This document shows, piece after piece, positions 16,108 to 19,845 of a DNA stretch of 33,293 bases. Source of the DNA: Bacteroidota bacterium (GTDB lineage: Bacteria; Bacteroidota; Bacteroidia; Chitinophagales; Chitinophagaceae); contig RDXK01000108.1 of the NCBI GenBank assembly GCA_004292605.1, positions 1-33,293 on the forward strand, in the 5' to 3' direction. Each line of letters starts with the position of its first letter. Positions within the stretch are counted from its first letter, which is position 1. The notes under the pieces are model-generated. The model had not been told where the DNA came from, made no database searches, and worked only from the letters and a program-made list of their open reading frames with translations. Position numbers and translations under genes: made by a program.

Positions 16108-16138
16108 GCCCCCGTTTCTACGGGGGCTTACTTTTTTT
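16108..16138 (+). terminator. Plus-strand intrinsic terminator reaching the alaS stop
   Basis: A perfect 8-bp GC-rich stem (GCCCCCGT 16108-16115, ACGGGGGC 16120-16127, loop TTCT) is followed by TTACTTTTTTT on the plus strand. It lies about 155 bases past the beta-barrel gene's stop, and its T-run overlaps the end of the convergent alaS. On the minus strand no U-run follows, so it does not look like the alaS terminator. Confidence 0.75.
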
Positions 16139-18749
16139 ATAAGGTTTTGAAAGCCTGTATTACCGCCGCCAAATCATTGGTTTTTTGTCCGCCTGCCGTA
16201 GCCAAGTTTTTATTTCCACCGCCACCGCCTTGTATCAATGGTGTTACTTTTTGCTTAATAAACTGAACAGCATCTGTACTAGTAGCCTGTATAAAAGCAT
16301 CTGTAAAGGCAGCCACTACAGTAGCTTTTCCATCTATAGCAGCGGCCAATACCACACTGGCTTGGTGATGAGCAGCTTGTAAACCGGCAGCCACTTTTTT
16401 TACTGCATCGGCACTGTTAGCACTAATTACGGCAGCAATAATGGGCTGTTGGTGAAGCGTTTCTATAGCGGCACTTAATTGCTGTACCGTGGAATTGATT
16501 TCCTTTTGTTCAAAACCTTCTAGCTTACGCTTGGCCTGGGTTAGCTCATCTTGCAATTGTTCTATGGCTTTTACAGGCTGGTTATTTTTTACCAATTGCT
16601 TTACCTGACTTAATTCTGCCAGTTGCTGGTTTACAAAAGCTTGGGCCGCTTTACCCACCATGGCTTCTAAACGGCGTACGCCAGCCGCTACAGCTGTTTC
16701 ATGGGTTATTTTACAAAAACCTAACTGGCCTGTAAAACCTACATGGGTACCGCCACAAAGTTCTACACTATAGTTTTCATCGGCTATTACTACCCGTACT
16801 ACATCGCCATATTTTTCGCCAAACAAGGCCATGGCGCCAAGGGCAAGAGCATCTTCCTTACTCATTTCCTTAATTACTACAGGAATATTGGCTTGTATTT
16901 TTTCGTTTACTATATCTTCTACTTGTTGTATTTCCTCGGCGGAAACTTTGGCAAAATGCGAAAAATCGAACCGCAATTGCTCATCGTTCACCAAGCTACC
17001 TTTTTGTGCCACATGGCTGCCTAATACCTGGCGTAAAGCCGCATGTAATAAGTGCGTAGCCGTATGGTGCATGCTAGTGCTTAACCTACGTGTAGCATGT
17101 ACTTTAGCTACAACGGGTGCATGTATGCTTGTAGGCAACTGCTGGGTAAAATGAATAAATAAATTGTTTTCCTTTTTTGTATTCAGCACTTCTATTTGTT
17201 CCGTACCAAAATCTAACACACCGGTATCCCCTACTTGACCACCACTTTCGGCATAAAATGGTGTAGCGCCCAACACTAACTGATAACTATCCTTTCCCTT
17301 GGCGGTTACTTTACGGTATTTTACCACATGAGTATGGCTTTGTAGCTGTGTGTAGCCCACAAAACTATTGGCACCATCGGGCTGCAACACCACCCAATCC
17401 TCAGCATCTACGGTGGTAGCGGCACGACTTCTATTTTTTTGCTGCTGCATTTCGGTTTCAAAACCTGGTTCATCCACCACCAAATTATTTTCTGCGGCAA
17501 TGAGTTTGGTTAAATCTACCGGAAAGCCATAGGTATCAAATAATTCAAAGGCAGTTTTACCCGCCAAAACACCATCTTTTGCCTCGGCCATGGCATCGTC
17601 TATCCGCTTCAAACCTTTATCTAGCGTACGTAAAAAGGCATCTTCCTCTTCTTTTACCACCTTTTTAATAAAATCTACCTGTGCTAGCACTTCAGGAAAC
17701 ACGTTTTCAAATTGTGTAGCTAATAAAGGTAGTAATTGGTGTAGCAATGGCTGTTTATACTGCAGGTAGGAGTAGTAGTACCTAACGGCCCTGCGTAATA
17801 TACGGCGTACCACATAGCCTGCACCTGTATTGCTAGGTAGCTGACCATCTGCAATGGTAAATGCAATGGTACGGATATGATCGGCTATTACCCTAAACGC
17901 AATGTCGGCCTTGCTTTGGCTAAAACCATACACTACGCCCACTGCTTTTTCAATGGCGGCAATGGTGCCCGTAAATACATCAGTATCGTAATTGCTTTTT
18001 TTATTTTGTAGCACACGTACAAGGCGTTCAAAACCCATACCTGTATCTACATGTTTATTGGGTAATTCCTCCAAGGAACCGTCTTTTTTTCTATTGTATT
18101 GAATAAATACATTGTTCCAAACTTCTATTACTTCTGGGTGATCTTTGTTTACCAATGTTCGGCCGGGTATGGCGGCTCTATCTTCATCGCTTCTTAAATC
18201 TACATGTATTTCACTACATGGGCCACAAGGGCCAGTATCGCCCATTTCCCAAAAATTATCTTTTTTGTTACCGTACACTATATGCTCATCGACTACTAAT
18301 TTTTTCCATTCTGCCAGAGCAATGGTGCTAGCGGGGATACCTTCCTTAGCGTCGCCTTCAAAAACAGTTACGTACAATCTATCCTTTGGTATTTTGTACA
18401 CTTCGGTTAATAATTCCCAACTCCATGCTATAGCTTCTGCTTTAAAATAATCGCCAAAGCTCCAATTGCCCAGCATTTCAAACATGGTGTGGTGATAATG
18501 ATCTACCCCTACTTCCTCTAAATCGTTGTGCTTGCCGCTTACTCGCAAACATTTTTGGGTATCTGCAATACGTGGATACGGACTTTGCTTTTCGCCCAAA
18601 AAGTATTCCTTAAACTGGTTCATACCTGCATTGGTAAACAATAAGGTAGGATCGTTTTTTACTACAATGGGCGCCGATGGTACAATTTGATGTCCTTTAG
18701 ACGCAAAAAAATCTAAAAACTGTTGACGTATTTCAGCACTTGTAAGCAT
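16137..18749 (-). CDS. alaS: Alanyl-tRNA synthetase
   Basis: 870 residues, normal for bacterial AlaRS. It charges tRNA-Ala in the cytoplasm. The class II catalytic core is at the N-terminus (SAPIVVKNDPTLLFTNAGMNQF, RIADTQKCLRVSGKHNDLEEVG, FEMLGNWSFGDYFK). The editing domain carries its metal ligands: HHTATH with His562 and His566, and CGGTHV with Cys665 and His669. A coiled-coil linker (about residues 710-770) leads to the C-Ala domain, ending in the glycine-rich loop IQGGGGGNKNLATAGG. All key motifs are intact. The start at 18749 fits the family. The gene is divergent from an M23 peptidase gene, a pairing I recall as common in relatives. Confidence 0.98.
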   Translation of the reverse strand: MLTSAEIRQQFLDFFASKGHQIVPSAPIVVKNDPTLLFTNAGMNQFKEYFLGEKQSPYPRIADTQKCLRVSGKHNDLEEVGVDHYHHTMFEMLGNWSFGDYFKAEAIAWSWELLTEVYKIPKDRLYVTVFEGDAKEGIPASTIALAEWKKLVVDEHIVYGNKKDNFWEMGDTGPCGPCSEIHVDLRSDEDRAAIPGRTLVNKDHPEVIEVWNNVFIQYNRKKDGSLEELPNKHVDTGMGFERLVRVLQNKKSNYDTDVFTGTIAAIEKAVGVVYGFSQSKADIAFRVIADHIRTIAFTIADGQLPSNTGAGYVVRRILRRAVRYYYSYLQYKQPLLHQLLPLLATQFENVFPEVLAQVDFIKKVVKEEEDAFLRTLDKGLKRIDDAMAEAKDGVLAGKTAFELFDTYGFPVDLTKLIAAENNLVVDEPGFETEMQQQKNRSRAATTVDAEDWVVLQPDGANSFVGYTQLQSHTHVVKYRKVTAKGKDSYQLVLGATPFYAESGGQVGDTGVLDFGTEQIEVLNTKKENNLFIHFTQQLPTSIHAPVVAKVHATRRLSTSMHHTATHLLHAALRQVLGSHVAQKGSLVNDEQLRFDFSHFAKVSAEEIQQVEDIVNEKIQANIPVVIKEMSKEDALALGAMALFGEKYGDVVRVVIADENYSVELCGGTHVGFTGQLGFCKITHETAVAAGVRRLEAMVGKAAQAFVNQQLAELSQVKQLVKNNQPVKAIEQLQDELTQAKRKLEGFEQKEINSTVQQLSAAIETLHQQPIIAAVISANSADAVKKVAAGLQAAHHQASVVLAAAIDGKATVVAAFTDAFIQATSTDAVQFIKQKVTPLIQGGGGGNKNLATAGGQKTNDLAAVIQAFKTL

Positions 18750-18771
18750 ATAGTTTGCTCAATTTTAATCG

Positions 18772-18801
18772 TTTGTAATGTAGGCGGTACTGTTATCTTT
18801 G
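18772..18801 (+). promoter_or_regulatory. Promoter of the M23 peptidase gene
   Basis: TTTG (18772-18775), an 18-base spacer, then TATCTTTG (18794-18801): a near-ideal Bacteroidota housekeeping promoter. Transcription would start near 18806, giving a leader of about 68 bases. It points toward, and transcribes through, the alaS promoter. Confidence 0.65.
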
Positions 18802-18820
18802 TTTTTTCCGCTTTGGTGTG

Positions 18821-18848
18821 CAAAGGTAATAGGTTAGCTGAAACACAA
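18821..18848 (-). promoter_or_regulatory. Promoter of alaS
   Basis: On the minus strand TTG (18848-18846), a 17-base spacer, then TACCTTTG (18828-18821). Transcription would start near 18816, a leader of about 67 bases. It lies beyond the M23 promoter, so the two promoters face each other and the 5' ends of the two transcripts would overlap by roughly 10 bases. Confidence 0.6.
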
Positions 18849-18873
18849 CTTACCACAGCGAAAACGATTTGGC

Positions 18874-19845
18874 ATGAAGAAAATAAAATATTTCTACAAT
18901 ACACATACCCTACGATATGAGAAGCTGGTAACGCCCTTACGGGTAAAGCTTTTGCGTGTTTTTGGGTTTATAGCTGCTGCCTTGGTTACGGCGGTAGGAA
19001 TTGTGGCCATAGCGTTTCAATACATTGAAAGCCCCAAAGAAAAATTACTTACCCAGCAAAATGCCGATTATAAAAGAAACTACGATGTTTTAGAACGCCG
19101 ACTAACCGAGCTAGAACAGCAAATGGATGAACTGGAAAAGCGAGATAATGATGTATACCGCAGCATTTTTGAGGCGGACCCTGTGCCCGATAGTGCCCGA
19201 GTGAAAGCTATGGAACGCAACAAGGAATTGGCCATGATAAATACCCTAAGCGAAAACGAATTATTAACGGGTATGACTGCACAATTAAATACCCTTAGCA
19301 AACGCTTAGCCTACCAGCAAAAAAGCTATGGAGAACTAGCACAAATGGTAAAGGGAAAAGAAAAATTATTAGCGGCTATACCTGCTATACAACCCGTAAG
19401 CAACAAGGATTTAGATAGAATAGCTAGTGGCTTTGGTTACCGTATAGACCCTGTGTACAAAATTACCAAATTTCATGCGGGGCTCGATTTTACGGCACCA
19501 CAAGGCACACCTATTTATGCCACTGCCGATGGGCGGGTAACCACCGCAGGCAACCAAGGAAACGGCTACGGAAACCATGTGGTAATCAATCATGGCTATG
19601 GCTATGAAACCCTGTACGGCCATATGTACCGTATAAAAACTAGGGGCGGCCAAACGGTGAAACGTGGTGAGGTGATAGGCTATGTAGGTAGTACCGGAAA
19701 AAGTACAGGGCCCCACTGCCACTACGAGGTACATAAGAATGGTAAACCCGTGGATCCGATCTACTTTTTTTACAACGATTTATCGCCAGAGCAGTTTGAT
19801 AGATTGTTAAAACTTGCGGCCGCCGGCAACCAAAGTTTAGATTAA
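18874..19845 (+). CDS. Membrane-anchored M23-family peptidoglycan endopeptidase
   Basis: 323 residues. A short basic cytoplasmic N-terminus is followed by one membrane segment (about residues 30-50, VFGFIAAALVTAVGIVAIAF), then a coiled coil (about 60-95) and a C-terminal LytM/M23 domain (about 185-300). Zinc ligands are intact: His201 and Asp205 in HAGLD, His281 and His283 in HCHYEVHKNG. GYRIDPVYKITKFHAGLDF and YGHMYRI are typical family blocks. It should cleave peptide cross-links of the cell wall in the periplasm, or act as an activator-type LytM factor; intact ligands favour an enzyme. It is transcribed divergently from alaS, and is followed 82 bases later by a CAP-domain gene. Confidence 0.95.
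   Translation: MKKIKYFYNTHTLRYEKLVTPLRVKLLRVFGFIAAALVTAVGIVAIAFQYIESPKEKLLTQQNADYKRNYDVLERRLTELEQQMDELEKRDNDVYRSIFEADPVPDSARVKAMERNKELAMINTLSENELLTGMTAQLNTLSKRLAYQQKSYGELAQMVKGKEKLLAAIPAIQPVSNKDLDRIASGFGYRIDPVYKITKFHAGLDFTAPQGTPIYATADGRVTTAGNQGNGYGNHVVINHGYGYETLYGHMYRIKTRGGQTVKRGEVIGYVGSTGKSTGPHCHYEVHKNGKPVDPIYFFYNDLSPEQFDRLLKLAAAGNQSLD

Follow-up and report, generated by a model that had tools for sequence, protein, structure and literature searches.

Is the overlapping transcription of neighbouring genes selected, or is it merely tolerated? The region upstream of alaS bears on this question. In the window (the entire stretch of 33,293 nt that was analysed), alaS, encoding an alanyl-tRNA synthetase of 870 aa (positions 16137-18749, minus strand; an ORF with the Pfam matches PF01411, E 9.7e-196, and PF07973), and a gene for an M23-family peptidase of 323 aa (18874-19845, plus strand; an ORF with PF01551, E 3.5e-36) are in divergent orientation and are separated by 124 nt. 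An initial annotation of this DNA had placed two promoters between them which face each other, each lying downstream of the start site of the other.

Facing promoters between alaS and the M23 gene

On re-check, the box coordinates of the annotation proved to be exact on both strands. The plus-strand box TATCTTTG at 18794-18801, which by its sequence, its conservation and a comparison of gene neighbourhoods is most likely the -7 box of the M23 promoter, is located within the alaS leader. The minus-strand box TACCTTTG at 18821-18828 (read 18828-18821), which by sequence and conservation is the -7 box of the alaS promoter, is located within the M23 leader. Both correspond to TAnnTTTG, the -7 box of the Bacteroidota primary sigma factor, and they face each other at a distance of 19 nt. 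A scan with a sigma-70 hexamer model, which does not extend to promoters of this type, gave no match at the site and one match at 18658-18686.

According to passages of PMC9723704, the -7 box was mapped at -12 to -5 relative to the transcription start in Flavobacterium psychrophilum. With this distance the boxes predict starts at 18806 (plus strand) and 18816 (minus strand), reproducing those of the annotation. From the box positions we infer leaders of 67 nt for alaS and 68 nt for the M23 gene, and an overlap of 11 nt between the 5' ends of both transcripts (18806-18816).

Concerning the -33 elements, the annotation was right in part. It had proposed TTTG at 18772-18775 on the plus strand (spacer of 18 nt to the M23 box) and TTG at 18846-18848 on the minus strand (read 18848-18846; 17 nt from the alaS box). 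A TTG-like element is supported on the plus side, where TTG at a spacing of 17-23 nt was found in 22 of 47 representative loci (9.4 after shuffling); for the full TTTG there was no clear excess (5/47 vs 3.8), and the copy in the window is a candidate element. The minus-side TTG is not supported by conservation, as it occurred at the same spacing in 4/45 representatives, with 4.6 in shuffled sequences. In excerpts of PMC7366714, which contain no mention of alaS, a -33 motif is stated not to have been found in F. johnsoniae.

Conservation of the facing pair

We gathered 80 loci via the M23 protein, 30 via alaS in the family and 30 in the class (both alaS lists include the alaS of the window), and 80 further upstream stretches. 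Among the loci with a stated family, those closest to the window are assigned to the Chitinophagaceae. On the basis of similarity within their first 100 nt, 217 alaS loci were deduplicated to 185. The deduplicated set held 143 divergent alaS/M23 loci, which were divided at 55% M23 identity, a limit of our own choice, into a near, Chitinophagaceae-like group (106 loci) and a far group (37 loci). From 83 loci with facing boxes 55 representatives were retained, 48 of them belonging to the near group. An alaS match was present in 143 family genomes, 92 of which were analysed, together with 47 class loci outside the family. The strict facing pair was defined as TAnnTTTG followed by CAAAnnTA, and dinucleotide shuffles served as the null model (30 rounds for the count with gaps of up to 35 nt).

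The facing arrangement is neither due to chance nor local. Within a gap of at most 35 nt, the strict pair was found in 76/106 near-group loci, with a mean of 0.4 and a maximum of 2/106 in the shuffled sets. A facing pair with one mismatch was present in 19 of the remaining 30 loci (shuffled, 3.6). When gaps of up to 80 nt were allowed, 84/106 loci had the facing pair, and two more had boxes in the back-to-back orientation only. Taken singly, the -7 words were present in 102/106 (plus; shuffled, 18.8) and 96/106 (minus; shuffled, 15.6) near-group intergenic regions. The median gap between the boxes is 20 nt; the predicted 5' overlap has a median of 12 nt in the 48 near-group representatives, and box positions predict such an overlap in 46 of these 48, a set preselected for facing pairs. 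Thus the conservation of both -7 elements in relatives that share this gene pair, which had been suggested as a check, was confirmed, and box positions and conservation give good support to facing, interpenetrating promoters whose transcripts are predicted to overlap at their 5' ends.

In the family sample, which was drawn evenly, 48/61 M23-adjacent loci had facing and 3/61 back-to-back boxes (shuffled, 0.13 and 0.1). Outside the family, the numbers were 7/36 and 6/36 in the class sample (shuffled, 0.16 and 0.14), and in the far group 7/37 and 7/37. Among other divergent gene pairs in four genomes, 2/57 had facing boxes within 40 nt, but this background rate is only rough because the gene caller was crude: it placed the M23 start at 18951 and yielded only 58 divergent pairs.

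The layout does not result from cramped space, since the pair was kept in 17/26 loci where the genes are 250-500 nt apart; in 8 of these 17 the whole pair lies 126-287 nt from alaS. At more than 500 nt, it was kept in just 1/6 loci.

Two variants of the layout were seen. Outside the near group there are seven strict back-to-back cases, and in five of them (the class loci L136, L153, L156, L238 and L247) the distance from CAAAnnTA to TAnnTTTG is exactly 11 nt. Each -33 region would therefore overlie the opposite -7 box, which is another interlocked layout. In L044, L060, L070, L078, L090 and L098 the boxes are 39-83 nt apart, and the inserted sequence is partly self-complementary.

Assignment of the plus-strand box

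A distance of 33-57 nt separates the plus-strand box from the start codon of alaS in most loci (median 43 nt, with a tail up to 287 nt). To which of the two genes it belongs was judged by comparing alaS genes with and without an M23 neighbour, the latter meaning that no divergent M23 gene was detected within approximately 2 kb or up to the contig end. One such locus, L200, is a contig end of 289 nt which itself has a facing pair; it is included in counts of 31 loci and excluded from counts of 30. The median distance between the alaS box and the start codon is 21 nt without a detected M23 neighbour vs 71 nt with M23 (51/61 of the latter have the box). Without M23, the CAAAnnTA box was found in 23/30 loci, at 4-32 nt from the start codon in 20 of these 23. 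In the family genomes TAnnTTTG was present within 100 nt of alaS in 3/30 loci without and in 52/61 loci with M23. According to this neighbour comparison, the plus-strand box most likely belongs to the M23 gene and is nested in an alaS leader which is lengthened by about 50 nt.

When family genomes without the M23 neighbour were searched with the M23 protein (29 of the 31, with G079 and G144 omitted), 13/29 had a match at E <= 1e-30. Of these 13 detached genes, five (L272, L273, L276, L278 and L280) have a strict TAnnTTTG no more than 60 nt from their approximate start, and eight lack it. Thus, when the genes are apart, alaS and some M23 genes have near promoters; when they are together, the promoters are interlocked and the alaS leader is longer. 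A different arrangement was observed in G078 (L269; G078:C95 6180-9771), where both genes are in tandem on the same strand with a spacing of about 25 nt, as in an operon, and not divergent.

Probable competition for initiation and its alternatives

We consider it probable that the locus contains interlocked promoters of the Bacteroidota primary-sigma type, each nested in the leader of the opposite gene, which give rise to RNAs overlapping by about 11 nt, and that initiation is subject to competition between the two genes. Both boxes are retained as a unit in the relatives, about 20 nt apart. The footprint of RNA polymerase in E. coli extends from approximately -50 to +20. A polymerase bound to either promoter would extend over the opposite one, so that the region could be occupied only once at a time, and a polymerase leaving either promoter would sweep the opposing one; with single occupancy and sweeping, alaS and the M23 gene would therefore compete. 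Mutual exclusion is the mode of action that this geometry, together with its conservation, makes most likely. The coupling of tRNA-Ala charging to wall remodelling proposed in the annotation, by inverse regulation of alaS and the M23 gene through transcriptional interference, is plausible.

An alternative, which we regard as less probable, is that the interlocked promoters are real but represent an inherited layout without regulatory effect, firing too rarely to interfere. Short leaders are the norm in the phylum (medians of 24 and 32 nt in two species, according to passages of PMC9723704), and an ancestor could therefore have locked in an odd layout; the occurrence of back-to-back forms outside the family (6/36) is in line with this. 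It is harder to reconcile with the retention of the pair where there is room to part (17/26 loci at 250-500 nt) and with an alaS leader that is short again when M23 is absent.

Even less probable is the idea that the plus-strand box is no promoter at all but the loop motif of an RNA element in the alaS leader, the M23 gene being read from elsewhere. An RNA motif of alaS was indeed our first idea, based on the clustering of the box at 33-57 nt from the alaS start; this clustering persists even when the M23 gene is further off, and the flanks of the box can pair (see below). We dropped it because the box is nearly absent beside alaS without M23 (3/30). Moreover, the box conforms to the usual promoter consensus and is preceded by a TTG-like element, and in three of the six loci where the genes are more than 500 nt apart (L053, L058 and L065) TAnnTTTG is found near the M23 gene and not near alaS.

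Pairing around the plus-strand box

In many loci, the sequences to the left of the plus-strand box and between the two boxes are complementary to each other, and the arms differ between loci. This inverted repeat does not appear in the initial annotation. For the 55 representatives the mean best stem score was 11.36, vs 9.72 (sd 0.26) after swapping of the inner stretches, and none of 500 swaps reached the observed value. No clear pairing excess was detected for three other region pairs (z -0.1, 0.6 and 1.0), and none for 48 other TAnnTTTG boxes upstream of ORFs (z -1.8). Perfect stems with a score of at least 13 were present in 14 of 48 representatives (mean 6.0 and maximum 13 in 500 swaps); they have 14 different arm strings, a few of which share a core.

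Both arms would be present only in the alaS transcript. In the 48 near-group representatives duplex energies favoured the alaS strand (z -6.9 vs -4.2; the asymmetry was reached by 4/200 swaps), as would be expected if G-U pairing in an RNA were tolerated. Of the control region pairs, one leans mildly in the same direction (z -1.5, 8/200 swaps) and another does not (z 1.4). The minimum-energy fold encloses the box with at least four pairs in 30/48 sequences, and the folding z-scores average -1.3 over the 55 representatives. In the window itself, the minus-strand stem-loop (18784-18811) has only four pairs (z -1.5), between the arms 18784-18787 (GCGG) and 18808-18811 (CCGC), which enclose the complement of the plus-strand box.

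For consensus folding, subsets were picked by eye from 52 stretches. In the first one (A2, 12 sequences) covariation was modest, with 81.3% paired cells vs 76.5% in shuffled alignments (5/500), and RNAalifold reported one compensatory pair; the second one (A3, 15 sequences) gave no consensus fold. We read these data as selection for pairing of the flanks without a fixed place.

Known types of leader were also considered. A search of 18600-18950 against Rfam at a permissive threshold gave only four matches of 15.6-18.4 bits, far below the gathering scores, and no T-box or other leader. A terminator or attenuator was rejected, as the terminator scan was empty in this region of the window and no T-run was seen by eye 3' of the stem in the 52 stretches. 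The G3:U70 pair is characteristic of tRNA-Ala; a tRNA-Ala mimic with this pair was dropped after inspection of the same stretches by eye, because the stems vary freely.

AlaRS autorepression has been described for E. coli. A protein-bound DNA operator, for instance in such autorepression, is a very improbable role for the inverted repeat that in many loci flanks the -7 box and the start, because the arms differ between loci: a single protein would hardly read the 14 arm strings of the 14 perfect stems (score of at least 13, 48 representatives). In addition, the alaS strand gives the better pairing, in line with the G-U pairs that an RNA can form.

In addition to competition between the interlocked promoters, the RNA may contribute. 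In many relatives a 5' stem-loop could form in the alaS leader RNA, its arms enclosing the complement of the M23 -7 box. Such a structure may protect the longer leader or make it more stable, or it may keep the 5' end of the alaS RNA from annealing to the M23 RNA. It is tempting to speculate, though we hold this to be rather doubtful, that TATCTTTG has a dual role, as the M23 -7 box in the DNA and, by its complement, as the loop of a stem that co-evolves in the alaS leader RNA; that both RNAs could compete for one arm of this stem, which is within the stretch complementary to the 5' end of the M23 RNA; and that alaS and the wall peptidase gene form a conserved mutual switch acting at the promoter and RNA levels without a regulator protein.

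Relation to known systems

The closest known kind of arrangement is a minimal divergent excludon. Overlapping 5'-UTRs of divergent genes are an established idea, as outlined in parts of PMC9239193, and the present locus resembles the excludon described there in its divergent protein-coding genes, predicted overlapping 5' ends and possible mutual hindrance. It differs in the interpenetration of the promoters themselves and in the predicted overlap of about 11 nt; furthermore, the arrangement is conserved in relatives and includes an RNA stem-loop around one box, the mutual regulation being putative. In the symmetric bidirectional promoters of E. coli reported by Warman and colleagues, the starts flank or fall within a shared -10 element, according to passages of PMC12825309. 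These too have two opposed promoters in one short stretch, where polymerases can exclude each other, but the alaS/M23 region has two separate facing boxes 19 nt apart and no shared -10 element in the sense of those passages. For Flavobacteriaceae, structured 5' elements without an Rfam match, alaS among them, are described in parts of PMC9723704; our structured alaS leader, which has no Rfam match either, is likened to that one by description only. Among the top 10-15 matches per search in open-licence PMC articles, no paper described the alaS/M23 promoter layout.

With respect to the question raised at the beginning, one interlocked geometry recurs through the family, and in sister genomes with a split pair the alaS leader lacks the interlock. 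Split and joined genomes thus offer a ready test, by comparison and by experiment, of whether selection maintains the interference of a housekeeping gene with the gene next to it.

A conserved stretch upstream of the plus-strand box

In the alignment of the 15 loci of A3, the last ten columns, located upstream of the plus-strand box, read CAAAAATCA (TGATTTTTG on the M23 strand) and are nearly invariant. This invariance exceeds what an ordinary -33 element would need and possibly marks a second regulatory site.
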